DNA from: Caenorhabditis remanei
Lineage: Eukaryota > Nematoda > Chromadorea > Rhabditida > Rhabditidae
Reading direction: 5' to 3'
DNA: 64,000 bases
Assembly (NCBI RefSeq): GCF_010183535.1
Contig: NC_071331.1
Span: 10,540,001 to 10,604,000, forward strand
The position numbers and the translations under genes are program-made. Shown here in pieces: positions 9,071 to 40,650 of the stretch. The stretch's first letter is position 1, and every line of letters begins with the position of its first letter. The notes below the pieces were generated by a model. The model searched no databases. It saw only the letters and a list, made by a program, of their open reading frames with translations, and was not told where the DNA came from.

Positions 9071-12000
9071 ATGAAAATAAACATTTGAAATCATTTCCTG
9101 GAAAAGATAGGCTTGAATTACACTGGGATCCAAGAAGGTGATCGAAAGAATACTGAAACGGTAACTAACTCTGGTTAGAAGGAAGTGACAAAACTTATGG
9201 AATGGTTCTAGCAATATGATCCAATCCCCTACTTTTTTCAGAACGTTGAGTTTTTGATTGTTTCGATTCGAAAGTTTCGAACAGTTGTCAGAATTTCAGC
9301 TTGAGCTAATTTCACAACTTTTTAGTTTGATAGAAATACTGAAATTAAGAAATGAAACAATTGTCGATTCTTCACAAATTACCAATGATGATTAAACTTC
9401 TCACAAGTGAGTCGACAATCTGAAACCGAAACTCATTTCTCCTAAAAACTTACGGATAATACGCAGCGTTACCTTTTTTCGGATTACTTGAAGCGGTAGT
9501 TTTCTGTCCAACGTAGACGTCTGATCAACAAAACTTACATCGAACCATCGAAACTGTTAAATTTTCAGAAATCCGGATGAGGCATTGAGTGAAAAAGATG
9601 CTCGGGTTCTTACTTCTTTGTTGAATCAGAAAATATACATAATTGTTTCGAGCGCTGTTTCATTAATACAATTTTCAAGTGAGCTGGTAGCACAGCGAAC
9701 AGAACAGAAATCAGGAGTGGTTGGTTTACTTACTTTATCCTTGAAACTGTATCAATATTGTGATTTTACCTAGCATTCCTCGTAGAAAAAACTCATGTTA
9801 ATATACGCTTCTCTATTTTTTTCCAAGATAACCAAAACTAAACCAAAACAATTCACATCCAGGGGAGTTGATCCATACCAGAAACGGCAACTATTTAAAA
9901 AAAAGTACTTTTTCAGGGAGATGTTAACATTTATGGGTTTCAATATAAGACGGTCGAAATTACGCAGTTTTTTGCTTACGCATTTATTTTCTAAAAAAAA
10001 ACTGAGAAATTCTGTTCTGAAGCAAATTCTTTTTCTTGTTTCAGATTTCAATCAAAAACGTGTGAAAAATAATCATCTAGACACAAATTTACTACGTATC
10101 GGTTGAGCCACGTCATTCTCTGTTCCTGTTTTCCAGAGTCGATATCGATACGGACATTGTATCAAGCCAAAACATTGTAAATTCTGTTCCTTTCAATTCA
10201 ATCTTCAAATTCAATCAAATCAATCGAGGAAATTATGGATACTCAAAGTTATCGCAATGAAACAGTTATTTCAGTTTTGCAATCGAAACGAGAAATGAGA
10301 AATGTATCAATAATCGTACTATTTCAATAGGCTTTCAAAACTGCTGATTGATTTTTTTTTCATTAGTTGAATGAAATTAACAACTGGTCCTCAAAGAAAA
10401 ATTGAAAACCCATTTGACAAAATTGGACCCATAGGACGACCCAATAAAAAAAACTAGCAATAAACCATAGAAATTAACTTCCTGAAACATTGTTTTTTTA
10501 TTTCAAATTTTGACAGAAAACATGGATTTCAAAAAATAATCTTACTGTGTCTAGAAGACTTAAAATAGTTTCAATAGTTTTATTTTTTGATGTTGATGTA
10601 TTTTTTGCCGAAATCAAACTATAGCTTATTGTTAGGGCGTCTCCAAAATCCTTATTTTCAAAACCAAAATAAGTGACTCCTGCTCACGGTTTCAATTTCT
10701 CAATAAACTGGCTAAAACAGTAACATTTCCGTTTTTGGCAGCGTGAACGTTTTCTTCTCTCTTCAGACGAAGAAAAATTCAAAATTCAGCCCATCTGTCT
10801 TCTTCTCCTTAAATTTGATTCCATCTCCTCCTCCCGCCAGCCACCACACGGTATATGTACATACAATTCATCCCATTCCCCTTTGTGTCACTCACAGAAT
10901 GACATAAAAGAAAACGTATGCGGATTTTATGACTTTTTTCTCTTCTGGTGGCAAAGAAAAACGATACGAGTTAGTAGTCCGTCACGCATCGATGATAAAA
11001 TCTGCCTTTTTTGAACTTGAACTTGTGTGTCGACGGAACAAATTATTCATTGGGGACTGCTTGGATTGTGATGAAAACAGACATGTCGAGTGACAAATGA
11101 GACGAGAGTCTGTTGCTCGTCTTCATTCTTCATCTCAACACAGCCCCATCACGAAAAACAAAAACTCCTTCTCTGTATATATCTACAACAATCGCACCCA
11201 TTCATCAGTTTTTCTGCAACTGGGACCTATCGATCATTTCTTTTCGCCTTCTCCTCCCCTCTCCTCGTCGTTGTTGCCTTCAAAATTCGGTGTGTCGATG
11301 GAAAATGCGCGAAGCAGCAACAATAAGACAAACGATCTTCTCTTCTTCAAATCGACGACAACGATTTCTTCATCTTTTGGGTGACAAGCACCAACTTTCC
11401 GGGTGCCCCAACAATCATATTCTTGGGCTGTGCGATGATTGATTGGAAATATAGCGTTGATGACATATGATAATGATGGAATACCCCTTGATGTATCTAT
11501 ATCATCATAGCCTCTCCTCCCCCCACTCCCCCTTTCCTCCTGTCGTTGATCTTCAAGTCTTAATGGTCAAATAAAAACATAAACAAAGTGGAGAGAGGGG
11601 ATGGATTTTTATTTTTCAAAAGTTGAGGGACGAACTTTTGGAGTCTCATGATCATGGTGCCTGGATGAAAATGGGTGGAAAAACCTAACGATCTAGGAAT
11701 TTAATGAGCTGTATATCATTTTCTGAGAACAGTAAAAACTGGAATCACAGGTTTTAAAAGTATTTAGAAATGTTTAATTTCAATTGTTTTTTTCAGCGCG
11801 AACGAAAGCCAAAGCACGACTTCAATGAATGCAGGTCATGAAACCGAAACAATTTTGCAAGTATTTTCAAAAAATGAAAATTTCGAACTACTCATATTGC
11901 GTTCTTTAAAGGCATTCTTTAATTTGGTATTTAACTGAAATCATTGAGCTGAAATGTGAAAACCTATCAGAAGTCTATAATTACTTCAGTGAGCCATTCA

Positions 12001-21112: not shown

Positions 21113-21719
21113 TAATCCATTTCTTCACAGATGCTAAAACTATTTTTATAAAAAAACTACCTCCTAAGACATTCCGTTTCCAAAACAATTCCCTGAAACA
21201 GCAAACAAATGACTGTGAATGGTATGCACACCAGAGTTGAGAGAAGTATGGGGGGGTACTAACACACACACAAGGGGAGAAACGATGGGGACCATGAGTC
21301 ATTGACAACAGAGTGATCGTATTTCCCGCACTGTTTGTTTGTTTGTTTATTGTTTACGTTGAATTAATTATCAATTTTATTGTTTTAACTAATTAGTTCT
21401 CATCCACTAATTAGTATTCCATTAATTATTTCAAACAATTAAAACGTAAGTGGTAATTCCAGAAGTTTTACACGTGAACATTATTATCTTGTCACGTGAG
21501 CAGTTGATATACTTAATTCATTTTTGTTTTGATTACGCTGATGCATTTTTTTTTTGTTTTCATTCAAACATGAACTTGACCATAATATACAATGTTATTC
21601 TCAGAAAAGGGGTGTATTAGGCACAAAATACTACTTTCATGCATTTTCACACTTTTTCAATGTTTTTAAGGTGACTTACCACTAATCACGAGCCTGAAAA
21701 GGGGCGGAGCCTAATGGAA

Positions 21720-21864
21720 TGGTATTTAAGACAGCTTATGCGTACCTAAATTATCATTCTGAGAAAAAATTAATGTGAGTTTTTATTTTATTTTCATTTA
21801 TTTATGGCTATTGTTTTTAATTTCCAATATTTATTCTACAATTATAACATTAATGTTCCAGAAA
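21720..21864 (+). promoter_or_regulatory. Promoter and 5'-UTR intron of the small arm gene
   Basis: TATTTAAG at ~21,723 resembles a TATA box. GTGAGT at 21,775 and TTCCAG ending at ~21,860 would define a 5'-UTR intron just upstream of the ATG at 21,865. The mirror copy is at ~39,643-39,787. Confidence 0.45.
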
Positions 21865-22430
21865 ATGGCTAACTATAAGAGAATACTGTTGACAATTTCA
21901 CATGATGAAGTTCAAATAGACGATCCAACACTCCCATCAACTGATGAATCATCTCCTGATGAGATAGATGCCAAGGAAAACCTTCCGAGTCAAAAGGTAC
22001 ATAAAAATATTTAAGTTTCAATTTACAAGTATTAATATTTCAGCTCGAGTCAAAAAATATTGTAAAAGTTTTGAGAAAGACATTTGACGAGCCAAGAGGA
22101 AAGTTTCGAGGAGCGATTGCAACTGTCCGTCTTCTTCTCGAACTACCACCGGCTTTGATTTTGCTTGACTCAGGATCCGAAAAATTCGGTGAATGTGTTA
22201 TCAAGCTCATGAAATCTCATAACCCATTCAAATCTGACCGCACCATCGTATCCATTGCCATTGATGGAGGTGACAATAATTGTGATGTGTCTACTCAATT
22301 CAAACCAATAGGAGACATCAAATCCTTTGATGTGGTTCGTTGTATTGAAAAGTCGGAGCACGACATCGACCTTGGTCTCCGACAAACATCAGTGATTTTC
22401 ACATATTTGAATCCACCAAGATCAAATTGA
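21865..22430 (+). CDS. Stand-alone homologue of the PolB N-terminal domain, 172 aa (left copy)
   Basis: Exons 21865-21996 and 22044-22430 join in phase. The second exon matches the N-terminal domain of the polymerase encoded 2.2 kb downstream: EPRGKFRGAIATVRLLLELP against DAKGRFNGLVKTVTLSLELP, then HNPFKSDRT against NDPFKTPRT, and a shared C-terminal TYLNPP. The first exon is acidic (DDPTLPSTDESSPDE). No transmembrane or catalytic motif is visible. A replication accessory or terminal-protein-like role is possible because it duplicates a domain fused to a protein-primed polymerase, but that is inference. The frame is intact and the right-arm copy is identical in translation. Confidence 0.7.
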
Positions 22431-23142
22431 AGTCGACTCTGTGTTTTTTTTACTTTACACTATTTACTTGTTGCAGTATCAATAATCTATGTACGCCTAT
22501 ATTATTTTGTAATTCCGAAATAATTTTTGTATTTTCCAATGAAGCGAAAAAATGGTGCATTACATTAAAAGCCAAGTCTGAAAATGATTCCAATACGTTG
22601 TTACGTTGAAAAACAAAGCGGAGTTTGTATTAGACAACAAGGAAATTTATTGCGATCGTGACTATCAGTAGGAATTATACTAATCAGAGAAATTATTATT
22701 CATTACATGAAGTGAATATATTTTAATAGTAATAATAGCAATCATTTATTACGATCGTGAAAGTATTGTGAAAGTATAGATTGGTGAATAAAATTCACTA
22801 CAAATACAATAGGTTCATTACATTATACTAGGAAGAATAAACATGAAACATGAACACATGAGGTCATACCAGAGAAAGTATTGAGAAAGTAAATGAAAGG
22901 ATAAACGAATTAAATGCAAAACTAACACATAAAAATTATAAAGAAATATTAAAACTTCGAAACAAGGCCTACATTAAAAAAAAAGAAGTTTAAGAAGAGT
23001 ACTTGTTATTAATAATATGTTGTTGAATATATAAAATACGTACGGATAACAAATGTCACGTATACACTTGTCTTTTTGATTTACTTTTTGGACAGATTGT
23101 CTGACACAATACAATAATAATAATAGGTGAATAAAAAGAGGT

Positions 23143-23493
23143 TTAGTGATTATGAAGGTGTAGGGTGAGGTATTTATCAAAGTTTGTTATATGTAGATTT
23201 GACTTTAACGCTGTTGAGGAGATTTTGGCAGGAATAGTGGCGCCAGGCAATGAATTCCTGAAATTTAATAACCGGTTGTGAAAGTATTGAGCACCAGGTT
23301 TAGTTGTATAAAGCAAGACAGACTCAATGTAGTAGGGATGTCTTCTTAACAATCCAAAGTTCAGAAGTGTAGTAAATAACTCATCGGGGTTTCTTCCGAC
23401 ACTATAGTTTTGTACATGAGATTTAGCACAGAAGTAAGTCTGAGGCATACATAAAACAAAAAGCAGTTTATTATTAGTTGTATGTGGTATCAA
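23143..23493 (-). CDS. Doubtful ORF on the opposite strand of the left arm
   Basis: About 117 codons are open on the minus strand; the first ATG in frame is at ~23,448, giving ~101 residues. The product is basic and Tyr/His/Asn-rich, with no domain I recognise. It is flanked by direct copies of TGTATACGTGACATT (about 23,052-23,067 and 23,520-23,535). No clear promoter or splice partners. It may be a small element gene convergent with 21865-22430, or chance; the identical right-arm copy adds no independent support because the arms are recent duplicates. Confidence 0.25.
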   Translation of the reverse strand: MIPHTTNNKLLFVLCMPQTYFCAKSHVQNYSVGRNPDELFTTLLNFGLLRRHPYYIESVLLYTTKPGAQYFHNRLLNFRNSLPGATIPAKISSTALKSNLHITNFDKYLTLHLHNH

Positions 23494-24619
23494 ATAGACA
23501 AAATAGGTTCAGATGAAGAATGTCACGTATACACTCAGACGGAAAATCTTCAAATTTCAATGAAAATAATAAACTTTTTATTTCAACTTCTGTATAAAGA
23601 AAGCTTCGTCGTAAACTAAGGAGTTATTGTGAATCCCGATTGATAGTTAGTGAAATTAATAAGTCAGTATAAACAAAGTAACGAAAAGATAGCGCAATAA
23701 ATGTAAAGCAAAACGTAAGAAAACATATGTTTAGACTTGACGCAACTATATTCTAGTGTGATATTCTGAATTCGGTACAGTAGAATGAGGACGTGAACAT
23801 CAAACCTTGTTAGAAATTGCTAGAATAAAGGAAGACGCGGGTCTACTTTAGAATGATTAAGAATATAAATTAGACAGAGATTTTAGAAGTCCGGTTCAAG
23901 CTCCTTGTGTGGTGGCGGAGGTCCCTTTTGTACTTCTGCTACTGGAATAACATTCTTAGAGATTGTGGGAGATTAAGAGGGGTTGGGACGGCGACTAATC
24001 GATTGGGTCTTGGGAATGTGCTAGAAGGGGAATATTATGTGTTGGGAAAGTTACTTGTCTGGAAATAGACTTCCGCGACTGTATTCGGGATGTGAGTCAT
24101 ATGGGAACGCGGTGTGAGTGGCCAATCTGAGGATGACTAATGGAACCGTGGGAAACTATCCGTTAGGGATTACTGATCCCTTACACTAGGAGAGATCACA
24201 TATATTTTGCTAGGTCTTTCATTTGGTACTCTTATGAAATGAGTGACGTCATCACTAAAAACAATAGTATGACGTCATAGAATGATATCGTGTTCGAACA
24301 CTTACTGAAACAAAGTAAGAAAAGCTCTTGAAACAGTAATTTTACCTAAAACCACGTATTCCTTATATTCCCATTAATATCAAATTTTCTATACAGTGAT
24401 GATAAACTTGCAAAAGTGACAATAATTGGACATATGGCGATGGAATGATCAAGAATGATAGAATTCAGCATAAAGTATGAAATAAGGCAAATTATCAACC
24501 ACACGGAGGGGTATATAAGACACATATTTTGACAGAAAATCATTCATTACACACTTTCACAAGTGTCGACTCTGCTTTTTTCTATTCTGAAATAATTTAT
24601 TTTCTTTTAATTCCATATA

Positions 24620-27600
24620 ATGGATTCGAAACTAGATGAAAGTGATGACAAAGTGGTAAGAGAAATTACATTTTTATTTTCATTGAAGGATATATTAGGT
24701 ACAAGTGGGAGGAGCCAATGTTCGAGTTCTGACAAAACTTGCTGAAGACGCAAAAGGAAGATTTAATGGACTTGTGAAGACAGTAACACTTTCTCTCGAG
24801 CTTCCAACATCCATGACGTCAGATCCACGTGGAGCAGAACTATTTGCAGACACGCTGATTGAACTAGTTCAGAGAAATGATCCATTTAAAACTCCACGGA
24901 CTAGAGCAGGATTCAACTTCGAATCTTCAGAATTTGAAGAATCTGTTGGAATGGCATTCCAAAAAATCAATAATATGTCAGTTTCGGAGATTGTGGAAAA
25001 TATGGCAAGGATGTCACAATCAAGTAGATCTCCTCTTGAACTAGAGGATCCCAAACTGACTTTGAGAATCACATATCTCAATCCACCGTCAGGAAGTGGA
25101 AAACGGAAGTTCAATACAGGAGATATTTTGGAGCTTACCGCATTTGAAAAGAAGAAAAAAACTGATGATACCATCGAAGAACCATGTTGTGAGACCAAAA
25201 CTATGGTGGAAACAAAACAGACGAGATCAAACATAATGCCAAATGAAGGTAACAAAATCATATGACTTTATAACAATAATTATGTTTATTTCAGTACGCG
25301 AAAATTGCCTAGTTCATGCACTTTATCAAACTCTTATGTATCATGAATGGAAACAAAATCGGACTATTGAAAATCAAAACAAGTACCGCAGTTCCGTCAG
25401 AAAAACATATAAACGCCCAGGAATTTGTTCAGAAGTATATGACGCAGTGAATGACTTGAAAGAGGTAAAAATATGGCTGTGATATATTATCAAACAAATT
25501 TTCATTTCAGAGAGCAGGAATGACAAAATCTAGTGATTTTGACAGACTGGATATAGAACAATTCCAGAAAACTGTATTTGCAAGTACACATCAAATTGTT
25601 GTCTTTGTTGAAAATTCAACTACACCATACTATATGGGACCCTATGTCGGGTCAAGTAAGCAGCTGGTTTTGTATCTGTCTAACGGACACTTCAGCGGTG
25701 TGAGAAGTATCTGTGCACTTCTCAAAACGGACTATTATTGCTTTTTGTGTAACACAAAATACAAAGATTCATCATCGCACTACAATTGTCCACTAATTCA
25801 TCGCGTGTGCGGCCAGAAGAACTGTATTATTTCGAAGGAAGATGAAGAAGTTCGTTGTAACAAATGCACAATTAAGTTCCGTTCCCAGTTATGCTTTGAA
25901 AATCATTTGAAAAATGGTAACAAAACAGTATTTTAAAGTTGTTGACATATGCTTTCAGGACTTCAAAACGGAAAAAGTCGTTGTCAACACACAAAATTTT
26001 GCAAGAAATGCGGTGAAGCATATTATACAAACAAAAACAAGGATGCTCATAAGTGTGGAGAGAAATGGTGTTACCGATGTAGCTGTAAAAGAGCAAGAAA
26101 TCATCAATGCATTATGCCTATTTCAAAGAAAAATGAGAAGAGATTGACAAGGCGACGAGTATTCTTTGACATTGAGGTATTATCAAGTCCTGAGTGTATT
26201 TTTGTTAATGTATTGTTTTTAGAGTAGAGCAGATGAAAAGACGGGTCAACAGTACCCAGTTCTCTTTGTGGCACTTCGTTGTTGTCCAGAGTGTTCTTCA
26301 TCAATACCAAAACCTCTTAAAGATGCTCGGAAGGAAACTTGTAAAAAGTGTGCACCGGATGGAAGACTGAAAATTATTGAATGTGTCACCATTAAAAACA
26401 GAAACGTTGATGTTGCTTCTGAACTAACCGAATGGCTCTTTGCGGATCATCATAAAGGAAGTGTTTTACTTGCACACAATGCATCTGGGTAACTTGTGAT
26501 TACTTAGAAGACATTATTAAACCCCCTTTTCAGGTATGATGCACAATTCATACTGGAAAAGATGATAGCAAGTAACAAAGCGTCACCTAATCTTATACTG
26601 GATGGTACAAAACTGATATTCATGGAACATAATGGTGTACGATTGTTGGATTCTATGAAGTTTTTGACGATGAGTCTTTCTGCATTAGGGAAAGCATTTG
26701 AAATTGACTCAGTCAAAGGGTGAGTGATAATTCTTCTAACTAAAATAAAATATAATTTTCCAGAGATTTTCCGGTTTTGTTCATTAAACCTGAGCACTAT
26801 GACTACAACGACAGTATGCCTGAAGACAAATGGTACAATTTGGAAAACAAACCTTCTTCTGTTAAGAAGCAAATCTTGAGTTTTCTTGAAAATGAGAGAA
26901 ATGCAAACAAAAAATTTAATTTTGTTGATGAAATCATGAGGTACTGCTACAATGATGTTTATATTCTTGCCAAAGCAATGAATATTTTTGAAACTGAATT
27001 TGAAGCTATGACCAATGTGTGTCTTTTGGAAGTGAGTTATTTCCCATTTAATACAAAACGAAATGTACAAGTTCAGGAGTCAACAACTGCGGCGTCTGCT
27101 GCTGCACTAGTTTTTCGAAGAAATCACATGGATCCTGAAAAACCAATTGTTTTGGATGTTAAGCCTTCTGCTTCTGTCAACAGTTCGGTAATCAGCCAAA
27201 AATACTTGGCATGGTTTGGAAGAAAAGAAGGAGTTCAAGTTAACATGTCTACCACAAATGGCGAGCAAAAAGTAATTTGAAAGCGGTAGTATCAAATTGA
27301 AAAGAAAATGTTACAGATTGGTGAATATCATGTAGATGGTTTTGTCTCTCCCTGTGAAAAATTTCCGGAAGGATTGATTATTGAATTCTTTGTAAGTTTA
27401 CGCATTTCTTTGATAAAATATTTTTTTTTGATGTTCAGGGGTGTTACTGGCATGCACATAGTTGCACCTACACAAAATCTTCTATGATTGGTAACGAAAA
27501 TGGCGAAGAAATTTGGGATAGAGATGCAAAAAGATTGAAAAGTCTTAAAGAACACCATCCAGTGAAAGTAGTATGGGAGTGTGAAGTTAAGCGAGAACTG

Positions 27601-29375
27601 TTGTTTGACACTGAAATGGCAGAATTCTTTGACAACTATGAACCAATTGTAAGTTATCTAACTCTCAATCCATAAAATAATATTATATATCAGGGAATAT
27701 TACACTGTGAGAAGTCTCTTGCTGGTGGAAGAACCGAAGTTTTCAAGTTGTACGCGAATAACACTAGAAAAGTTCTGCGATATTTAGATGTAGTCAGGTA
27801 ATTTAAAACACCAGTAATAAATAAACAACTAGTTTACAGTTTGTATCCCACTGTCATGAAGCATGAGGCTTTTCCGATCGGTTCTCCTGAAAATGTCCCG
27901 CAGTCTACAATGAAAGTACCTATGAAAAAACCGGAAGATATAAAATTTCGAGGATTTATGAGCTGTCGAGTACTTCCACCTCGCCAGTTGAATCTACCTG
28001 TCCTACCTATTAAGTATGGAGGCAAATTGCTATTTGGGCTATGTAGGTGTAAGTTTGGTTAATTTAAAATTATGATAATGTTTTTCCCGTGTTCAGGTTG
28101 TGCAAAGAAGATGAGTAACACGGCTTGCACCCACTCAAATGAAGAAAGGTCATTCAATGGCACCTTCACAACAGCAGAACTGCAAAAAGCTCTAAGCATC
28201 GGTTACACTATAATTGAAATTTACCACGTTAGTTCCAAATGAAGCGTTTGTTTTAAAATGGGGAATGTTATAGGGATTAAAATACAAACATTGGGCTCAA
28301 AATGATGCAAACGGAGAAGGTGGACTGTTCACTACCTATATAAATCAAATGATGGAGGAGAAAATAGTATGTTGTTGCACATAGTGACATAAAATAAAGA
28401 TATTATATTTCAGTATAGTTCCGGATGGCCGTCAAATGTTAAAACGGAAGAAGAAAAACATGCATTTTGTCAAGAATACTTTGAAAAAGAGCATATTCGA
28501 CTGACGGATCATTCCCGTTTCAAGAAAAACCCAGGAAAACGTGCCGTAGCTAAACTGATGCTTAACTCATTGGTAATACTCTGTTTCATTACCTTTTATA
28601 ATTGTATAATTTTGCAGTGGGGTAAATTTGCTCAGAACGTGGATCGAGAAACAACCAGCATCATAATAGACCCTTCAAAGTTCTGGGATATGGTGTATGA
28701 CACAAAAACTGTTATAACGGTCGCAAGGAGTGTAAATGATGTTTTGATTGTTAAACACCGTAAACAGGCTGAAACTCTGGAAAGTATGAGAACGAGTGCT
28801 ATGCAGCTTGCCACTTATACTACATCTTATGCAAGACTTCGACTCTACCGCTTCATGGAAATGGTAGGAGGAGAAAACATAATCTATACAGGTGCGTTAT
28901 TGCAAAATACCTCAAAATTATATTTTTTATTTTTATAGACACCGATTCTATTATCTACTCTGTACCGGAAGGTACGGAGGATCCGCTAAAAGATGAAGTC
29001 GGTTCTTATTTGGGACAACTTACGGACGAGCTGAATGGTAAAATGACAGAATTTGTAAGCCTTGGACCAAAAACTTACTGCTATAAGGATCTACTTGACA
29101 ACAATGAAGAAAAAATTGTGAGGAAAGCTAAAGGAATCATCATGAACTCGCAAGTGGAGAAAGAAGTTAATTATGACAAAATGAAAGTCATGGTGGACGA
29201 AGCAATCGAAAATGCAGAAGATCGTACAAGTCTCTACCTACCGCAACACACCATTTATAAGGACAAGAATCATAGGATGTACAGTAGGAACATCAAGAAA
29301 ATTTTTAAGTACACTTTCAACAAACGTAGACTGTTATGTGATGGATCAACACTACCGTTTGGTTATTGTGACTAA
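24620..29375 (+). CDS. Protein-primed family-B DNA polymerase, 18 exons, ~1,328 aa (left copy)
   Basis: Exons (approx.): 24620-24655, 24699-25248, 25295-25464, 25511-25916, 25959-26176, 26223-26488, 26534-26719, 26764-27031, 27077-27271, 27317-27391, 27439-27648, 27694-27797, 27840-28048, 28097-28227, 28274-28366, 28414-28572, 28618-28891, 28939-29375; all phases agree. Residues ~13-200 are the domain shared with the small arm gene. Residues ~320-445 are Cys/His-rich, zinc-finger-like. Exonuclease motifs: VFFDIE (~458), HNASGYDAQF (~547), YCYNDVYILAK (~671). Polymerase motifs: SLYP (~895), KLMLNSLWGKF (~1090), DTDS (~1185). The ~195 residues between the SLYP and NSLWGKF motifs leave room for the TPR1/TPR2 insertions of protein-primed enzymes. 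Similar to the 'DNA polymerase type B, organellar and viral' family. No frameshift seen; splicing is host-like, so it was adapted to nuclear expression. Confidence 0.85.
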
Positions 29376-30549
29376 CTTGTTTTTACACGTGTCATACTGT
29401 TAGAAAAATGTTATTAAATAAATATATTTTATAAAAGTTAAGTGAAAAGTCGATTACTGAATAAAAAATGTGGTTACGTGTTTCACACAGAAGGGAAATT
29501 TGTATGTGGCAAGCGGAAACCATACAAGTTGAGCATTTTATTGTAATACGTTAATAATTTTATTTATAAAATAACAAAATAAAGAAACAAAAAGTTTGAA
29601 ATGAGTGCAACAACAACAAAAAACTATATTTTCAAATTGTCTGTTACAAAATGAAAGAACTGAGTTGTTATTTTTCCTGAGAATCTTTGTTTTCTAAACC
29701 TTAAATTTTGCCATAGTTTCGAAATTGTTAATACTTTCATTTATGAGTCAGGTTGTGAGGCTCGGCAAACGTCGTTTTTGCTTCTTTCCCTATGAGTCAT
29801 CCTAACAGTGTTTGTTTCCAAGGTTTGGGTCCCGTCGTGAATGACTAATTTTGATTTGTCATCAAAAAAAAAAAGAATTTGGGATGAGGGAATACGAATC
29901 GAAACCAATATAGTAGGGAATTAATAAAATACAAACTAGGAAAATTATTTCAAGATCACAAAATACACGGATTGTTATACCTGATTTTATTTATTTAAAA
30001 ACTTTATTGTTAAGCCATTATTTTGAAAAAGAAGTTTGAAAATAGTTTGGTGTTACTATGTCATTTCCCCCTTCCTAGTCAGGAAGAATACAAGGAAAAC
30101 AAAGAAAGTACCGCCTTTGTCTGGTATTAAAAAAAAAAGAGAACTTGTGAGATTTAATGACTTAGTTTTTAATTAAAAGTCAGATTATGTTTATATATTC
30201 GATATAAACACTTTAGAAATTAAAATTTATTAGTATTTTTATGGGGAAACAAGTCATGAAAGGAAACAAGGTGTGTAGTTATTGTTAAATAACTATTTAA
30301 AATAATTAATTATATTTTTGCAAATTATAAAAAAACAAAAATATCTCTAATAGAAATACCTTTACCACGCTTTATCTATGTTTAACATAATAAAATTGAG
30401 TGAAATGTATTTTTATTCCAGAACTGTATTCCATTTGCTGTTCACTTTTTCATATTTTTCCTTTAAATTGACGAAAACTTGTAATTATGACTGTCAAAAC
30501 AGTGTTTTCTGATAAGTTTCGAGGAAACGATTCTCGCATCGAATGTGCC
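29376..30549 (+). other. Inner non-coding part of the left arm
   Basis: AT-rich, with AATAAATATATTT (~29,417) as the probable polymerase polyadenylation signal. No further gene seen. It mirrors 30,955-32,131 of the right arm. One arm difference is near 29,401: the right arm has three additional bases (see 32,100). Confidence 0.6.
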
Positions 30550-30954
30550 AGAGAAGTATGGGGGTCCCCCTACGACATGTCCCCATCCTTTCTCTCTGGA
30601 CCTTTTTTTTTAATTGTTTTTTGCTTTACATTGCTTCTTATTGTTGACTATGACGTCATCAGTAAGATAGAGACCGGCCAGAGGCGCGAGAGAGTACACA
30701 CCGCGTGGAGGGTACGAGAGAGTACACAAAGAGAGGAGGGTGTTAGACAAACAGAGAGAGGCGGTCGGCAGCGAGAGTTCGGAGAAATGACATGGAGGAG
30801 GGGAGGGGGGATGTGCGCGCGCGCGCCGGAGAGGAGGACCATCATGGATATGGTCGGGAGCCAGGTCGGCCACGGTAGAGAGCCATACTACCAGACTACA
30901 CTTTGGCAAAGATCAAAGATCAACTTATGTCGTAGGAACCACCCATAGTTCTCT
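30550..30954. other. Central GC- and purine-rich module between the arms
   Basis: The only non-palindromic part of the element. Its left edge AGAGAAGTATGGGGG (30550-30564) repeats the first 15 bases of the whole element in the same orientation; its right edge is an imperfect complement (ACCCATAGTTCTCT, to 30,954), and CCTACGACAT follows both edges. Inside are GAGAG-rich tracts, CGCGCGCGCG at ~30,818 and a palindromic TGACGTCA (30651-30658). The open frame 30487-30948 crosses the arm border and is low-complexity, so I do not call it a gene. Possibly a shared promoter, a replication origin or hairpin loop, or a short element with the same ends. Confidence 0.6.
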
Positions 30955-32131
30955 GGCACATTCGATGCGAGAATCGTTTCCTCGAAACTTATCAGAAAAC
31001 ACTGTTTTGACAGTCATAATTACAAGTTTTCGTCAATTTAAAGGAAAAATATGAAAAAGTGAACAGCAAATGGAATACAGTTCTGGAATAAAAATACATT
31101 TCACTCAATTTTATTATGTTAAACATAGATAAAGCGTGGTAAAGGTATTTCTATTAGAGATATTTTTGTTTTTTTATAGTTTGCAAAAATATAATTAATT
31201 ATTTTAAATAGTTATTTAACAATAACTACACACCTTGTTTCCTTTCATGACTTGTTTCCCCATAAAAATACTAATAAATTTTAATTTCTAAAGTGTTTAT
31301 ATCGAATATATAAACATAATCTGACTTTTAATTAAAAACTAAGTCATTAAATCTCACAAGTTCTCTTTTTTTTTTAATACCAGACAAAGGCGGTACTTTC
31401 TTTGTTTTCCTTGTATTCTTCCTGACTAGGAAGGGGGAAATGACATAGTAACACCAAACTATTTTCAAACTTCTTTTTCAAAATAATGGCTTAACAATAA
31501 AGTTTTTAAATAAATAAAATCAGGTATAACAATCCGTGTATTTTGTGATCTTGAAATAATTTTCCTAGTTTGTATTTTATTAATTCCCTACTATATTGGT
31601 TTCGATTCGTATTCCCTCATCCCAAATTCTTTTTTTTTTTGATGACAAATCAAAATTAGTCATTCACGACGGGACCCAAACCTTGGAAACAAACACTGTT
31701 AGGATGACTCATAGGGAAAGAAGCAAAAACGACGTTTGCCGAGCCTCACAACCTGACTCATAAATGAAAGTATTAACAATTTCGAAACTATGGCAAAATT
31801 TAAGGTTTAGAAAACAAAGATTCTCAGGAAAAATAACAACTCAGTTCTTTCATTTTGTAACAGACAATTTGAAAATATAGTTTTTTGTTGTTGTTGCACT
31901 CATTTCAAACTTTTTGTTTCTTTATTTTGTTATTTTATAAATAAAATTATTAACGTATTACAATAAAATGCTCAACTTGTATGGTTTCCGCTTGCCACAT
32001 ACAAATTTCCCTTCTGTGTGAAACACGTAACCACATTTTTTATTCAGTAATCGACTTTTCACTTAACTTTTATAAAATATATTTATTTAATAACATTTTT
32101 ATGCTAACAGTATGACACGTGTAAAAACAAG

Positions 32132-35100
32132 TTAGTCACAATAACCAAACGGTAGTGTTGATCCATCACATAACAGTCTACGTTTGTTGAAAGTGTACTT
32201 AAAAATTTTCTTGATGTTCCTACTGTACATCCTATGATTCTTGTCCTTATAAATGGTGTGTTGCGGTAGGTAGAGACTTGTACGATCTTCTGCATTTTCG
32301 ATTGCTTCGTCCACCATGACTTTCATTTTGTCATAATTAACTTCTTTCTCCACTTGCGAGTTCATGATGATTCCTTTAGCTTTCCTCACAATTTTTTCTT
32401 CATTGTTGTCAAGTAGATCCTTATAGCAGTAAGTTTTTGGTCCAAGGCTTACAAATTCTGTCATTTTACCATTCAGCTCGTCCGTAAGTTGTCCCAAATA
32501 AGAACCGACTTCATCTTTTAGCGGATCCTCCGTACCTTCCGGTACAGAGTAGATAATAGAATCGGTGTCTATAAAAATTAAAAATATAATTTTGAGGTAT
32601 TTTGCAATAACGCACCTGTATAGATTATGTTTTCTCCTCCTACCATTTCCATGAAGCGGTAGAGTCGAAGTCTTGCATAAGATGTAGTATAAGTGGCAAG
32701 CTGCATAGCACTCGTTCTCATACTTTCCAGAGTTTCAGCCTGTTTACGGTGTTTAACAATCAAAACATCATTTACACTCCTTGCGACCGTTATAACAGTT
32801 TTTGTGTCATACACCATATCCCAGAACTTTGAAGGGTCTATTATGATGCTGGTTGTTTCTCGATCCACGTTCTGAGCAAATTTACCCCACTGCAAAATTA
32901 TACAATTATAAAAGGTAATGAAACAGAGTATTACCAATGAGTTAAGCATCAGTTTAGCTACGGCACGTTTTCCTGGGTTTTTCTTGAAACGGGAATGATC
33001 CGTCAGTCGAATATGCTCTTTTTCAAAGTATTCTTGACAAAATGCATGTTTTTCTTCTTCCGTTTTAACATTTGACGGCCATCCGGAACTATACTGAAAT
33101 ATAATATCTTTATTTTATGTCACTATGTGCAACAACATACTATTTTCTCCTCCATCATTTGATTTATATAGGTAGTGAACAGTCCACCTTCTCCGTTTGC
33201 ATCATTTTGAGCCCAATGTTTGTATTTTAATCCCTATAACATTCCCCATTTTAAAACAAACGCTTCATTTGGAACTAACGTGGTAAATTTCAATTATAGT
33301 GTAACCGATGCTTAGAGCTTTTTGCAGTTCTGCTGTTGTGAAGGTGCCATTGAATGACCTTTCTTCATTTGAGTGGGTGCAAGCCGTGTTACTCATCTTC
33401 TTTGCACAACCTGAACACGGGAAAAACATTATCATAATTTTAAATTAACCAAACTTACACCTACATAGCCCAAATAGCAATTTGCCTCCATACTTAATAG
33501 GTAGGACAGGTAGATTCAACTGGCGAGGTGGAAGTACTCGACAGCTCATAAATCCTCGAAATTTTATATCTTCCGGTTTTTTCATAGGTACTTTCATTGT
33601 AGACTGCGGGACATTTTCAGGAGAACCGATCGGAAAAGCCTCATGCTTCATGACAGTGGGATACAAACTGTAAACTAGTTGTTTATTTATTACTGGTGTT
33701 TTAAATTACCTGACTACATCTAAATATCGCAGAACTTTTCTAGTGTTATTCGCGTACAACTTGAAAACTTCGGTTCTTCCACCAGCAAGAGACTTCTCAC
33801 AGTGTAATATTCCCTGATATATAATATTATTTTATGGATTGAGAGTTAGATAACTTACAATTGGTTCATAGTTGTCAAAGAATTCTGCCATTTCAGTGTC
33901 AAACAACAGTTCTCGCTTAACTTCACACTCCCATACTACTTTCACTGGATGGTGTTCTTTAAGACTTTTCAATCTTTTTGCATCTCTATCCCAAATTTCT
34001 TCGCCATTTTCGTTACCAATCATAGAAGATTTTGTGTAGGTGCAACTATGTGCATGCCAGTAACACCCCTGAACATCAAAAAAAAATATTTTATCAAAGA
34101 AATGCGTAAACTTACAAAGAATTCAATAATCAATCCTTCCGGAAATTTTTCACAGGGAGAGACAAAACCATCTACATGATATTCACCAATCTGTAACATT
34201 TTCTTTTCAATTTGATACTACCGCTTTCAAATTACTTTTTGCTCGCCATTTGTGGTAGACATGTTAACTTGAACTCCTTCTTTTCTTCCAAACCATGCCA
34301 AGTATTTTTGGCTGATTACCGAACTGTTGACAGAAGCAGAAGGCTTAACATCCAAAACAATTGGTTTTTCAGGATCCATGTGATTTCTTCGAAAAACTAG
34401 TGCAGCAGCAGACGCCGCAGTTGTTGACTCCTGAACTTGTACATTTCGTTTTGTATTAAATGGGAAATAACTCACTTCCAAAAGACACACATTGGTCATA
34501 GCTTCAAATTCAGTTTCAAAAATATTCATTGCTTTGGCAAGAATATAAACATCATTGTAGCAGTACCTCATGATTTCATCAACAAAATTAAATTTTTTGT
34601 TTGCATTTCTCTCATTTTCAAGAAAACTCAAGATTTGCTTCTTAACAGAAGAAGGTTTGTTTTCCAAATTGTACCATTTGTCTTCAGGCATACTGTCGTT
34701 GTAGTCATAGTGCTCAGGTTTAATGAACAAAACCGGAAAATCTCTGGAAAATTATATTTTATTTTAGTTAGAAGAATTATCACTCACCCTTTGACTGAGT
34801 CAATTTCAAATGCTTTCCCTAATGCAGAAAGACTCATCGTCAAAAACTTCATAGAATCCAACAATCGTACACCATTATGTTCCATGAATATCAGTTTTGT
34901 ACCATCCAGTATAAGATTAGGTGACGCTTTGTTACTTGCTATCATCTTTTCCAGTATGAATTGTGCATCATACCTGAAAAGGGGGTTTAATAATGTCTTC
35001 TAAGTAATCACAAGTTACCCAGATGCATTGTGTGCAAGTAAAACACTTCCTTTATGATGATCCGCAAAGAGCCATTCGGTTAGTTCAGAAGCAACATCAA

Positions 35101-36887
35101 CGTTTCTGTTTTTAATGGTGACACATTCAATAATTTTCAGTCTTCCATCCGGTGCACACTTTTTACAAGTTTCCTTCCGAGCATCTTTAAGAGGTTTTGG
35201 TATTGATGAAGAACACTCTGGACAACAACGAAGTGCCACAAAGAGAACTGGGTACTGTTGACCCGTCTTTTCATCTGCTCTACTCTAAAAACAATACATT
35301 AACAAAAATACACTCAGGACTTGATAATACCTCAATGTCAAAGAATACTCGTCGCCTTGTCAATCTCTTCTCATTTTTCTTTGAAATAGGCATAATGCAT
35401 TGATGATTTCTTGCTCTTTTACAGCTACATCGGTAACACCATTTCTCTCCACACTTATGAGCATCCTTGTTTTTGTTTGTATAATATGCTTCACCGCATT
35501 TCTTGCAAAATTTTGTGTGTTGACAACGACTTTTTCCGTTTTGAAGTCCTGAAAGCATATGTCAACAACTTTAAAATACTGTTTTGTTACCATTTTTCAA
35601 ATGATTTTCAAAGCATAACTGGGAACGGAACTTAATTGTGCATTTGTTACAACGAACTTCTTCATCTTCCTTCGAAATAATACAGTTCTTCTGGCCGCAC
35701 ACGCGATGAATTAGTGGACAATTGTAGTGCGATGATGAATCTTTGTATTTTGTGTTACACAAAAAGCAATAATAGTCCGTTTTGAGAAGTGCACAGATAC
35801 TTCTCACACCGCTGAAGTGTCCGTTAGACAGATACAAAACCAGCTGCTTACTTGACCCGACATAGGGTCCCATATAGTATGGTGTAGTTGAATTTTCAAC
35901 AAAGACAACAATTTGATGTGTACTTGCAAATACAGTTTTCTGGAATTGTTCTATATCCAGTCTGTCAAAATCACTAGATTTTGTCATTCCTGCTCTCTGA
36001 AATGAAAATTTGTTTGATAATATATCACAGCCATATTTTTACCTCTTTCAAGTCATTCACTGCGTCATATACTTCTGAACAAATTCCTGGGCGTTTATAT
36101 GTTTTTCTGACGGAACTGCGGTACTTGTTTTGATTTTCAATAGTCCGATTTTGTTTCCATTCATGATACATAAGAGTTTGATAAAGTGCATGAACTAGGC
36201 AATTTTCGCGTACTGAAATAAACATAATTATTGTTATAAAGTCATATGATTTTGTTACCTTCATTTGGCATTATGTTTGATCTCGTCTGTTTTGTTTCCA
36301 CCATAGTTTTGGTCTCACAACATGGTTCTTCGATGGTATCATCAGTTTTTTTCTTCTTTTCAAATGCGGTAAGCTCCAAAATATCTCCTGTATTGAACTT
36401 CCGTTTTCCACTTCCTGACGGTGGATTGAGATATGTGATTCTCAAAGTCAGTTTGGGATCCTCTAGTTCAAGAGGAGATCTACTTGATTGTGACATCCTT
36501 GCCATATTTTCCACAATCTCCGAAACTGACATATTATTGATTTTTTGGAATGCCATTCCAACAGATTCTTCAAATTCTGAAGATTCGAAGTTGAATCCTG
36601 CTCTAGTCCGTGGAGTTTTAAATGGATCATTTCTCTGAACTAGTTCAATCAGCGTGTCTGCAAATAGTTCTGCTCCACGTGGATCTGACGTCATGGATGT
36701 TGGAAGCTCGAGAGAAAGTGTTACTGTCTTCACAAGTCCATTAAATCTTCCTTTTGCGTCTTCAGCAAGTTTTGTCAGAACTCGAACATTGGCTCCTCCC
36801 ACTTGTACCTAATATATCCTTCAATGAAAATAAAAATGTAATTTCTCTTACCACTTTGTCATCACTTTCATCTAGTTTCGAATCCAT
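32132..36887 (-). CDS. Protein-primed family-B DNA polymerase, 18 exons, ~1,328 aa (right copy)
   Basis: Mirror image of the left-arm gene; start codon at 36,885-36,887, stop at 32,132. Exon blocks mirror those at 24620-29375 (left coordinate subtracted from 61,507 to within a few bases). Every open segment compared is identical in translation, including the DIE, HNxxxYD, YCxxDV, SLYP, NSLWGKF and DTDS motifs. The two genes converge on the central module: transcription from both arms runs inward, so read-through RNA would be self-complementary and could form long double-stranded RNA, a potential trigger of nematode RNAi (inference). Confidence 0.85.
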
Positions 36888-38013
36888 TATATGGAATTAA
36901 AAGAAAATAAATTATTTCAGAATAGAAAAAAGCAGAGTCGACACTTGTGAAAGTGTGTAATGAATGATTTTCTGTCAAAATATGTGTCTTATATACCCCT
37001 CCGTGTGGTTGATAATTTGCCTTATTTCATACTTTATGCTGAATTCTATCATTCTTGATCATTCCATCGCCATATGTCCAATTATTGTCACTTTTGCAAG
37101 TTTATCATCACTGTATAGAAAATTTGATATTAATGGGAATATAAGGAATACGTGGTTTTAGGTAAAATTACTGTTTCAAGAGCTTTTCTTACTTTGTTTC
37201 AGTAAGTGTTCGAACACGATATCATTCTATGACGTCATACTATTGTTTTTAGTGATGACGTCACTCATTTCATAAGAGTACCAAATGAAAGACCTAGCAA
37301 AATATATGTGATCTCTCCTAGTGTAAGGGATCAGTAATCCCTAACGGATAGTTTCCCACGGTTCCATTAGTCATCCTCAGATTGGCCACTCACACCGCGT
37401 TCCCATATGACTCACATCCCGAATACAGTCGCGGAAGTCTATTTCCAGACAAGTAACTTTCCCAACACATAATATTCCCCTTCTAGCACATTCCCAAGAC
37501 CCAATCGATTAGTCGCCGTCCCAACCCCTCTTAATCTCCCACAATCTCTAAGAATGTTATTCCAGTAGCAGAAGTACAAAAGGGACCTCCGCCACCACAC
37601 AAGGAGCTTGAACCGGACTTCTAAAATCTCTGTCTAATTTATATTCTTAATCATTCTAAAGTAGACCCGCGTCTTCCTTTATTCTAGCAATTTCTAACAA
37701 GGTTTGATGTTCACGTCCTCATTCTACTGTACCGAATTCAGAATATCACACTAGAATATAGTTGCGTCAAGTCTAAACATATGTTTTCTTACGTTTTGCT
37801 TTACATTTATTGCGCTATCTTTTCGTTACTTTGTTTATACTGACTTATTAATTTCACTAACTATCAATCGGGATTCACAATAACTCCTTAGTTTACGACG
37901 AAGCTTTCTTTATACAGAAGTTGAAATAAAAAGTTTATTATTTTCATTGAAATTTGAAGATTTTCCGTCTGAGTGTATACGTGACATTCTTCATCTGAAC
38001 CTATTTTGTCTAT

Positions 38014-38364
38014 TTGATACCACATACAACTAATAATAAACTGCTTTTTGTTTTATGTATGCCTCAGACTTACTTCTGTGCTAAATCTCATGTACAAAAC
38101 TATAGTGTCGGAAGAAACCCCGATGAGTTATTTACTACACTTCTGAACTTTGGATTGTTAAGAAGACATCCCTACTACATTGAGTCTGTCTTGCTTTATA
38201 CAACTAAACCTGGTGCTCAATACTTTCACAACCGGTTATTAAATTTCAGGAATTCATTGCCTGGCGCCACTATTCCTGCCAAAATCTCCTCAACAGCGTT
38301 AAAGTCAAATCTACATATAACAAACTTTGATAAATACCTCACCCTACACCTTCATAATCACTAA
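38014..38364 (+). CDS. Doubtful ORF, right-arm copy
   Basis: Identical inverted copy of 23143-23493; first in-frame ATG at 38,059. Same lack of recognisable domain. Flanked by TGTATACGTGACATT direct repeats at about 37,974 and 38,441. Confidence 0.25.
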   Translation: MIPHTTNNKLLFVLCMPQTYFCAKSHVQNYSVGRNPDELFTTLLNFGLLRRHPYYIESVLLYTTKPGAQYFHNRLLNFRNSLPGATIPAKISSTALKSNLHITNFDKYLTLHLHNH

Positions 38365-39076
38365 ACCTCTTTTTATTCACCTATTATTATTATTGTATTG
38401 TGTCAGACAATCTGTCCAAAAAGTAAATCAAAAAGACAAGTGTATACGTGACATTTGTTATCCGTACGTATTTTATATATTCAACAACATATTATTAATA
38501 ACAAGTACTCTTCTTAAACTTCTTTTTTTTTAATGTAGGCCTTGTTTCGAAGTTTTAATATTTCTTTATAATTTTTATGTGTTAGTTTTGCATTTAATTC
38601 GTTTATCCTTTCATTTACTTTCTCAATACTTTCTCTGGTATGACCTCATGTGTTCATGTTTCATGTTTATTCTTCCTAGTATAATGTAATGAACCTATTG
38701 TATTTGTAGTGAATTTTATTCACCAATCTATACTTTCACAATACTTTCACGATCGTAATAAATGATTGCTATTATTACTATTAAAATATATTCACTTCAT
38801 GTAATGAATAATAATTTCTCTGATTAGTATAATTCCTACTGATAGTCACGATCGCAATAAATTTCCTTGTTGTCTAATACAAACTCCGCTTTGTTTTTCA
38901 ACGTAACAACGTATTGGAATCATTTTCAGACTTGGCTTTTAATGTAATGCACCATTTTTTCGCTTCATTGGAAAATACAAAAATTATTTCGGAATTACAA
39001 AATAATATAGGCGTACATAGATTATTGATACTGCAACAAGTAAATAGTGTAAAGTAAAAAAAACACAGAGTCGACT

Positions 39077-39642
39077 TCAATTTGATCTTGGTGGATTCAA
39101 ATATGTGAAAATCACTGATGTTTGTCGGAGACCAAGGTCGATGTCGTGCTCCGACTTTTCAATACAACGAACCACATCAAAGGATTTGATGTCTCCTATT
39201 GGTTTGAATTGAGTAGACACATCACAATTATTGTCACCTCCATCAATGGCAATGGATACGATGGTGCGGTCAGATTTGAATGGGTTATGAGATTTCATGA
39301 GCTTGATAACACATTCACCGAATTTTTCGGATCCTGAGTCAAGCAAAATCAAAGCCGGTGGTAGTTCGAGAAGAAGACGGACAGTTGCAATCGCTCCTCG
39401 AAACTTTCCTCTTGGCTCGTCAAATGTCTTTCTCAAAACTTTTACAATATTTTTTGACTCGAGCTGAAATATTAATACTTGTAAATTGAAACTTAAATAT
39501 TTTTATGTACCTTTTGACTCGGAAGGTTTTCCTTGGCATCTATCTCATCAGGAGATGATTCATCAGTTGATGGGAGTGTTGGATCGTCTATTTGAACTTC
39601 ATCATGTGAAATTGTCAACAGTATTCTCTTATAGTTAGCCAT
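39077..39642 (-). CDS. Stand-alone homologue of the PolB N-terminal domain, 172 aa (right copy)
   Basis: Exons about 39,511-39,642 and 39,077-39,463 on the minus strand, mirror of 21865-22430 and identical in translation. Same relationship to the N-terminal ~190 residues of the adjacent polymerase. Intact. Confidence 0.7.
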
Positions 39643-40268
39643 TTTCTGGAACATTAATGTTATAATTGTAGAATAAATATTGGAAATTAAAAACAATAGC
39701 CATAAATAAATGAAAATAAAATAAAAACTCACATTAATTTTTTCTCAGAATGATAATTTAGGTACGCATAAGCTGTCTTAAATACCATTCCATTAGGCTC
39801 CGCCCCTTTTCAGGCTCGTGATTAGTGGTAAGTCACCTTAAAAACATTGAAAAAGTGTGAAAATGCATGAAAGTAGTATTTTGTGCCTAATACACCCCTT
39901 TTCTGAGAATAACATTGTATATTATGGTCAAGTTCATGTTTGAATGAAAACAAAAAAAAAAATGCATCAGCGTAATCAAAACAAAAATGAATTAAGTATA
40001 TCAACTGCTCACGTGACAAGATAATAATGTTCACGTGTAAAACTTCTGGAATTACCACTTACGTTTTAATTGTTTGAAATAATTAATGGAATACTAATTA
40101 GTGGATGAGAACTAATTAGTTAAAACAATAAAATTGATAATTAATTCAACGTAAACAATAAACAAACAAACAAACAGTGCGGGAAATACGATCACTCTGT
40201 TGTCAATGACTCATGGTCCCCATCGTTTCTCCCCTTGTGTGTGTGTTAGTACCCCCCCATACTTCTCT

Positions 40269-40650
40269 GAGTTGCATGGAAGTGAAAATTTCTTATCCGG
40301 AAGTCGGAAGTCGGAAGTGAATTTTCTTATCCGGAAGTCGGAAGTCGGAAGTAGGAAGTAAAATTTCTAATCCGGAAGTCGGAAGGGAAAAAACACCCGG
40401 AAGTCGGAAGTTGGAAGTCGAAAGTCGGAAGTCGGAATTAGATTTTTTCGCAAATATTCAAAAACTCCAAGAGAAAAGATCATAAAATTGGCGGAAATTA
40501 GTGGAAAATTAGGTTTTGGATGAAGAAAAGTCAATTTTCTCTCCTTTTAGACCATTTTTTCAAGTATTTCTGCGAAATATATTTTCGGAAATTCCACAGT
40601 TATTGGATGTCGGAAGTCGGAAGTCGGAAGTCGGAATTCCATGCAACTCT
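40269..40650. mobile_element. Mutator-like MITE split by the palindromic element
   Basis: The element begins AGAGTTG at 21,233, is interrupted by the 19-kb palindrome, and continues here (GAGTTGCATGGAA) to end TTCCATGCAACTCT at 40,650. It is flanked by the 9-bp direct repeat ATGCACACC (21224-21232 and 40652-40660). A 9-bp duplication fits Mutator-like elements. The interior is a minisatellite of GGAAGTC/GGAAGTCGGAAGTC units (about 40,300-40,435 and 40,610-40,640) around a ~170-bp AT-rich core. Non-autonomous. Confidence 0.75.

Follow-up and report, generated by a model that had tools for sequence, protein, structure and literature searches.

Polinton/Maverick elements have AG...CT terminal inverted repeats, 6-bp target duplications and a protein-primed family B DNA polymerase (PolB), and they encode a retroviral-type integrase, a double jelly-roll capsid protein, an ATPase and an adenovirus-type protease. 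They have been proposed as ancestors of several DNA virus groups. The replication of Polinton linear DNA in animals is not known to have been observed. I analyzed a 64-kb stretch of the Caenorhabditis remanei genome (G000:C4:10540001-10604000; hereafter the window, to which coordinates without a contig refer) and the palindromic element W that it contains (21240-40268). W resembles Polintons in its AG...CT terminal inverted repeats with a shared 14-mer at both ends, in its 6-bp target duplication, and in its protein-primed family B polymerase with a predicted N-terminal terminal-protein domain. Full-length elements with identical termini lie in the same genome. In contrast, no integrase, ATPase, capsid or protease gene was detected in the palindromes, which consist of two polymerase genes in 9-kb inverted arms with an internal Polinton terminus at the apex. 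Thus, W was filed as a Polinton-derived palindromic satellite and not as a Polinton. By gene content and form, it is a new palindromic variant of Polinton-type elements. No palindromic Polintons were described in the titles and abstract openings surveyed, which do not cover the nematode Polinton study of Jeong et al. 2023, so that an earlier description is possible. On balance, W is probably a polymerase-only Polinton/Maverick derivative whose arms were copied by fold-back synthesis and which was inserted by the integrase of full-length Polintons.

Other described systems share parts of this design. Snap-back or copy-back defective interfering genomes of RNA viruses and symmetric left-end duplications of adenovirus arise when one end of the genome folds back and primes its own copying, and the self-complementary product has no structural genes. 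The same course is proposed here for W. Its difference from these systems is that it is chromosomal, carries its own polymerase, has target duplications, belongs to a form seen in several lineages, and is known here from DNA alone. Foldback transposons have very long inverted repeats, target duplications, and arms made of short-repeat arrays. W shares the first two traits, whereas its arms are coding DNA with a polymerase gene; no tandem arrays were found in the window at a score of at least 150. Parvoviruses, including adeno-associated virus, replicate by a rolling hairpin, and bidnaviruses carry a related protein-primed PolB. Hairpin-mediated copying is likewise proposed for W, which differs in being an integrated double-stranded form with 9-kb arms. 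Bidnaviridae are mentioned in PMC11071308.

Structure and genes of the window element

The features of W and the elements compared with it are collected in Table 1. The arms of about 9.3 kb align in three inverted matches (21546-29408/32099-39961, 29404-30562/30942-32100, and 21240-21560/39948-40268) and are identical at 9333 of 9344 aligned positions. Three substitutions separate them in all, one within a predicted intron (28928), one at 30325 and one in the inner motif (30556), together with two small indels, of 1 bp at 21545 and of 3 bp at 29403, beyond the PolB stop codon. The catalytic exons are untouched. An initial annotation made from the window had described a perfect-looking palindrome; the near-identical inverted arms, the termini and the GAGTTG on both outer sides were all found as described, while the non-palindromic loop at the apex had been overlooked. 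The inner copies of the terminal motif face inward at the loop edges, and the right one is mutated. In the loop of W, 0% of the bases have an inverted partner.

Table 1. Features of W (positions in the window) and elements bounded by terminal motifs in the genome
Feature	Position	Strand	Basis
Left target-site duplication GAGTTG, 6 bp	21234..21239	.	directly outside left end
Left arm, starting with outer terminal motif AGAGAAGTATGGGG	21240..30549	+	self-alignment of window
Gene A, left copy, open stretch, stand-alone relative of PolB N-terminal domain	22005..22427	+	alignment
PolB gene, left copy, many exons	24699..29375	+	Pfam PF03175, motif positions
PolB N-terminal domain, predicted terminal-protein (D1-like) domain	24699..25262	+	alignment; D1 description in PMC11071308
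Apex loop, 405 bp, non-palindromic, inward terminal-motif copies at both edges	30550..30954	.	self-alignment, flank comparison
Loop part 94-95% identical to last 253 bp of a canonical Polinton family	30703..30954	.	DNA match
Right arm, inverted copy of left arm	30955..40268	-	self-alignment
PolB gene, right copy	32132..36808 (approximate, by mirroring left arm)	-	exon search, arm alignment
Gene A, right copy	39080..39502	-	genome match
Right target-site duplication GAGTTG, 6 bp	40269..40274	.	directly outside right end
Bounded palindromes, first five	W; C4:20221445 (E3); C5:20638892 (E5); C98:237995 (E7); C124:1431 (E8)		
Bounded palindromes, other six	C1:15587282; C2:3223923; C4:13668454; C6:9365108; C3:15505440; C2:19207561		
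Bounded ordinary Polintons, n=9	E1; E2; E4; E6; C2:13278910; C4:24592966; C5:16750518; C5:18247328; C6:1607815		

The model PF03175 matches the PolB of W in separate exons (best E 4e-10). All six catalytic motifs of the initial annotation were located in the left arm, at the exon junctions where they were expected; I take them to be exo I, exo II, motifs A, B and C, and the lysine motif after C. The right arm differs at no catalytic exon. A TAA codon in the right-copy PolB match is base 28928, translated through the predicted intron. Protein relatives with a source name came from C. nigoni, C. brenneri and C. sp. 36. As for gene A, 31 of the 102 listed matches reach at least 75 bits, and none of these 31 lies within a bounded canonical Polinton. 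One PolB exon (27385-27672) has a weak match to a Vsr nuclease (E 0.079). Nuclease inserts have been reported in nematode Polinton polymerases, and this match recalls them.

Related palindromes in the genome

Is W a single case? The genome (130.5 Mb, 186 contigs) was searched for its terminal motif. The terminal 14-mer has 49 exact copies, versus one for the reversed control, and the terminal 15-mer with at most one mismatch occurs at 128 places, versus 11 for the control. Among the places listed, 20 elements bounded by the motif were defined, the other places being single ends, contig edges or outside the set. Eleven of the 20 are palindromes of 16.4-19.3 kb and nine are ordinary Polintons. 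An exact 6-bp target duplication flanks every one of them (11/11 and 9/9). PolB matches lie on both strands, facing each other, in all eleven palindromes, and on one strand only in all nine Polintons.

The two groups also differ in the remaining genes. Both integrase and capsid matches are present in 9/9 bounded Polintons, whereas none of the 94 listed integrase matches (77 of 196 candidates scored) and none of the 95 listed capsid matches (96 of 107 candidates scored) falls in any of the 11 palindromes; the label capsid stands for a double jelly-roll match below the cut-off (22.6 bits versus 27). Among the open reading frames (ORFs) of at least 90 amino acids in E1 and E2, only those of the polymerase region, on either strand, match the W arm. 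No integrase match was found in one arm each of W, E3, E5, E7, E8 and L032, while E4, E6 and L035 do match. Likewise, the capsid, ATPase and protease ORFs of Polintons have no match in the six palindrome arms and do match other Polintons. An integrase borne by the palindrome itself was thus rejected, both by these arm comparisons and by the count of listed matches. These results agree with the initial annotation, which had seen a polymerase-only palindromic kind with duplications of Polinton type. An integrase supplied in trans, as it had suggested, would fit the missing integrase match; the supply itself is presumed.

The class is larger than the bounded set. With the W exon at 28393-28935 as the query, 150 PolB matches (150 of 275 candidates scored) gave at least 108 PolB loci. 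At least 27 pairs of these face each other, no more than 25 kb apart and with scores that agree to within 15%; among the loci listed, no pair is back-to-back and two are same-strand neighbours. The scores are equal in 20 of the 27 facing pairs and unequal in seven. A list made with the Pfam model (69 exonuclease-part matches of 131) holds 18 facing pairs, none back-to-back and one on the same strand, and 13 of the 18 are absent from the list made with the W exon. These 13 (on C4, C2, C3, C5, C1 and C122) have wider gaps of 6.7-13.5 kb, with some long open frames, and probably represent other palindromic lineages; C2:1160990-1174126 and three more pairs have equal scores. At C40:94565-114504, the gap of a facing pair is 18.96 kb, compared with about 3.9 kb in its siblings, which suggests a later insertion within one arm.

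Thus, the single element of the initial annotation turned out to belong to a large class, and a structure present at so many loci is not due to chance. This recurrence also excludes a one-off plain duplication. Perfect palindromes are a classic form of assembly or library artefact, produced by chimeric or missed-adapter reads. However, the eleven loci have distinct flanks with matching 6-bp duplications, the loops occur in two orientations, and several lineages are involved, so that an artefact is hardly credible.

Arms, apex and the origin of the palindromes

The arms were compared in full in five elements of two lineages. Within an element, they differ by 2 substitutions in 9310 positions (W), 2 in 9321 (E3), 3 in 8554 (E5), 1 in 9039 (E7) and 3 in 9086 (E8). 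Between elements, there are 155-157 substitutions (W/E3) or 267-453 (E5/E7/E8). In total, 719 columns are fixed within and differ between elements (155 in W/E3 and 564 in E5/E7/E8), versus eight arm differences (two and six, respectively), all private to one arm and none shared across elements. The arms have thus been homogenised within elements. In a third lineage, the arms of three elements are 100%, 99.68% and 99.92% identical over the inner 2.6 kb.

Gene conversion keeps palindrome arms alike in mammalian Y chromosomes. In the same way, a palindrome made once as a mobile unit might have been kept symmetric by conversion in the chromosome, which would fit the arm identity of at least 99.9% and require no special replication. 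I regard this as quite unlikely. The left arm of C4:13668454-13687141 is 99.96% identical to C1:15587282-15605931 but 99.68% identical to its own right arm (inner 2.6 kb). This one case argues that the arms were identical at insertion and have since drifted, without continuous correction; the differences gained since insertion were not erased. In addition, seven of the 27 facing pairs have unequal scores, and conversion leaves the Polinton ends at the apex unexplained.

These ends were found in three lineages. In W, loop bases 154-405 correspond to the last 253 bp of the L034/L037-L040 family with 94-95% identity (94-96% for the W/E3 loops). In a genome-wide search, this part matched both ends of C156:65630-86171 and, at 90%, both ends of C5:18247328-18263425. 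In E5, E7, E8 and L027, a piece of about 106 bp in the loop corresponds to the E1 terminus (86-92%), while the loops of L025, L026, L028-L031 and L036 match the terminus of E2/E4/E6/L035. Thus three palindromic lineages correspond to three Polinton families; of the ends compared, each loop type matched those of its own family only. In E5 and E8, the stretch of arm leading up to the apex matches E1 DNA that lies about 1.8 to 0.66 kb from the E1 terminus and runs towards that terminus, with a main block of 89-90% identity over 0.9-1.05 kb and short, partly duplicated blocks of 80-94%. The match stops at the edge of the 653-bp terminal repeat of E1, and the first 104 bp of E1 form one end of the loop. 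L032 combines two parts of the E2/E6 family: its arm resembles the flank on the PolB side (83-84% over 1.35 kb), and its loop resembles the terminus far from PolB. The arms are alike within the molecule and the apex lies at a genome end, as in snap-back derivatives. A separate observation concerns a short ORF near the E1 end (L009:1250-1561), which has matches of 60-76% amino acid identity beside the apex in the E5, E7 and E8 arms (L017/L021/L023); the E5 stretch contains stops in the frame used.

Could the loop be a late insertion? It has both terminal motifs and resembles a miniature element, so a short non-autonomous element with Polinton ends might have entered the centre of an older inverted repeat. 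No target duplication was found at the apex in the lineages read, however: the sequences on either side of the loop form inverted repeats and in no case direct ones, and thus the loop is not an insertion of the target-duplicating kind. On the same ground, the motif-bounded pieces of 622-987 bp were rejected as independent miniature elements. Such a nested insertion would also have had to strike exactly the same central spot in each of three lineages, and it is already contradicted unless the arms were recopied afterwards. It is very unlikely.

The initial annotation had suggested a head-to-head replication dimer, in which the closed or joined ends of two linear units are fused. This would produce the inverted symmetric form with two outer termini. 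In 6 of 13 loops, all from the third lineage, 95-100% of the bases are covered by imperfect inverted partners, as in a dimer, and the centre of a further palindrome on C174 is almost loop-free. The other seven loops are not symmetric; the fraction of bases with an inverted partner is 0% in L036 as in W, 14% in E3 and 38-46% in E5/E7/E8/L027. The lineages thus differ at the centre, which is nearly symmetric in one of them and asymmetric in others. Moreover, the arms join exactly at the terminal motif in the loops read, and a plain fusion of ends would not put this motif inside, facing the loop. A dimer fits the third lineage, but the full-length Polinton terminus carried at the apex points to snap-back from a Polinton end, and I retain the dimer as a second choice, unlikely on the whole.

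Snap-back may have proceeded as follows. A Polinton would have lost its integrase and virion genes while retaining PolB and its ends. At one end, the 3′ strand (CCCCATACTTCTCT-3′) would have annealed to an upstream AGAGAAGTATGGGG of the same strand. Synthesis primed from the annealed 3′ end may then have duplicated the PolB half, with the end itself remaining as a loop. In later cycles, replication would be started at the open ends by the PolB of the element, with its predicted built-in terminal protein. The strand displaced in this way, being self-complementary, would form a hairpin, and synthesis continuing round the loop would restore both arms, making them identical in each cycle. The shared termini would let the integrase of a helper Polinton insert the palindrome, which would thereby be mobile. 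If so, the arms rewritten together would be a direct sequence record of fold-back copying, and the palindromes would provide a testable helper-satellite system in a worm. The mirror-image pairing of 54 of the 108 related polymerase loci listed would also be explained.

Several points weigh against fold-back copying. It is deduced from genomic sequence with no replication intermediate in view, and gene conversion between arms could also homogenise them. How the inward motif required by snap-back arose is not explained, and the first 950 bp of E1 contain no second motif copy. E5 and E8 lack any counterpart of the E1 bases located about 105-660 from the terminus. The W loop matches a Polinton end at the DNA level, while the adjoining arm does not. 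The loops occur in both orientations (E5/E7 versus E8/L027), which would be expected equally from hairpin cycling and from simple recombination. The nearly symmetric loops of the third lineage resemble the centre of a dimer, and the C174 apex has no terminal motif and almost no loop, so that terminal snap-back is not the sole route. Finally, exon trees do not firmly unite the palindromic polymerases. A single change separates palindromic from ordinary polymerases in four of the six trees, two of which give it starred support, whereas the other two trees require two changes. Palindrome arms also share DNA segments with different Polinton families. The distinct lineage of the initial annotation, for which it had called for a polymerase phylogeny, thus receives mixed support from the trees.

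A second palindrome type

The C174 palindrome (L047, C174:12200-14600) is of another kind. Back-to-back integrase genes with the same 2218-bp gap were found on C174, C92, C75 and C86. In C174, the centre is a palindrome lying between PolB and ATPase, identical at 2370 of 2378 positions. Neither of the two lists of PolB matches has an entry on these four contigs. Such palindromes may supply the other half of a split system, or they may be a feature that assembly introduced into unplaced contigs. A tentative extension is that the polymerase palindromes form a standing class of self-complementary satellites, which would be maintained by a hairpin cycle and would stay symmetric because one arm is copied from the other. 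The apex of each would hold the terminus of its helper Polinton family, serving as a recognition site. Together with virion-half palindromes (integrase, ATPase, capsid) on unplaced contigs, they would make up a Polinton system divided between two kinds of palindrome within an animal germ line. This extension is possible but rather doubtful. A minor observation concerns the capsid gene, which is apparently interrupted at C92:19594-29730 and C118:1482-11616: its N-terminal and C-terminal matches there share a strand but are separated by about 9 kb.

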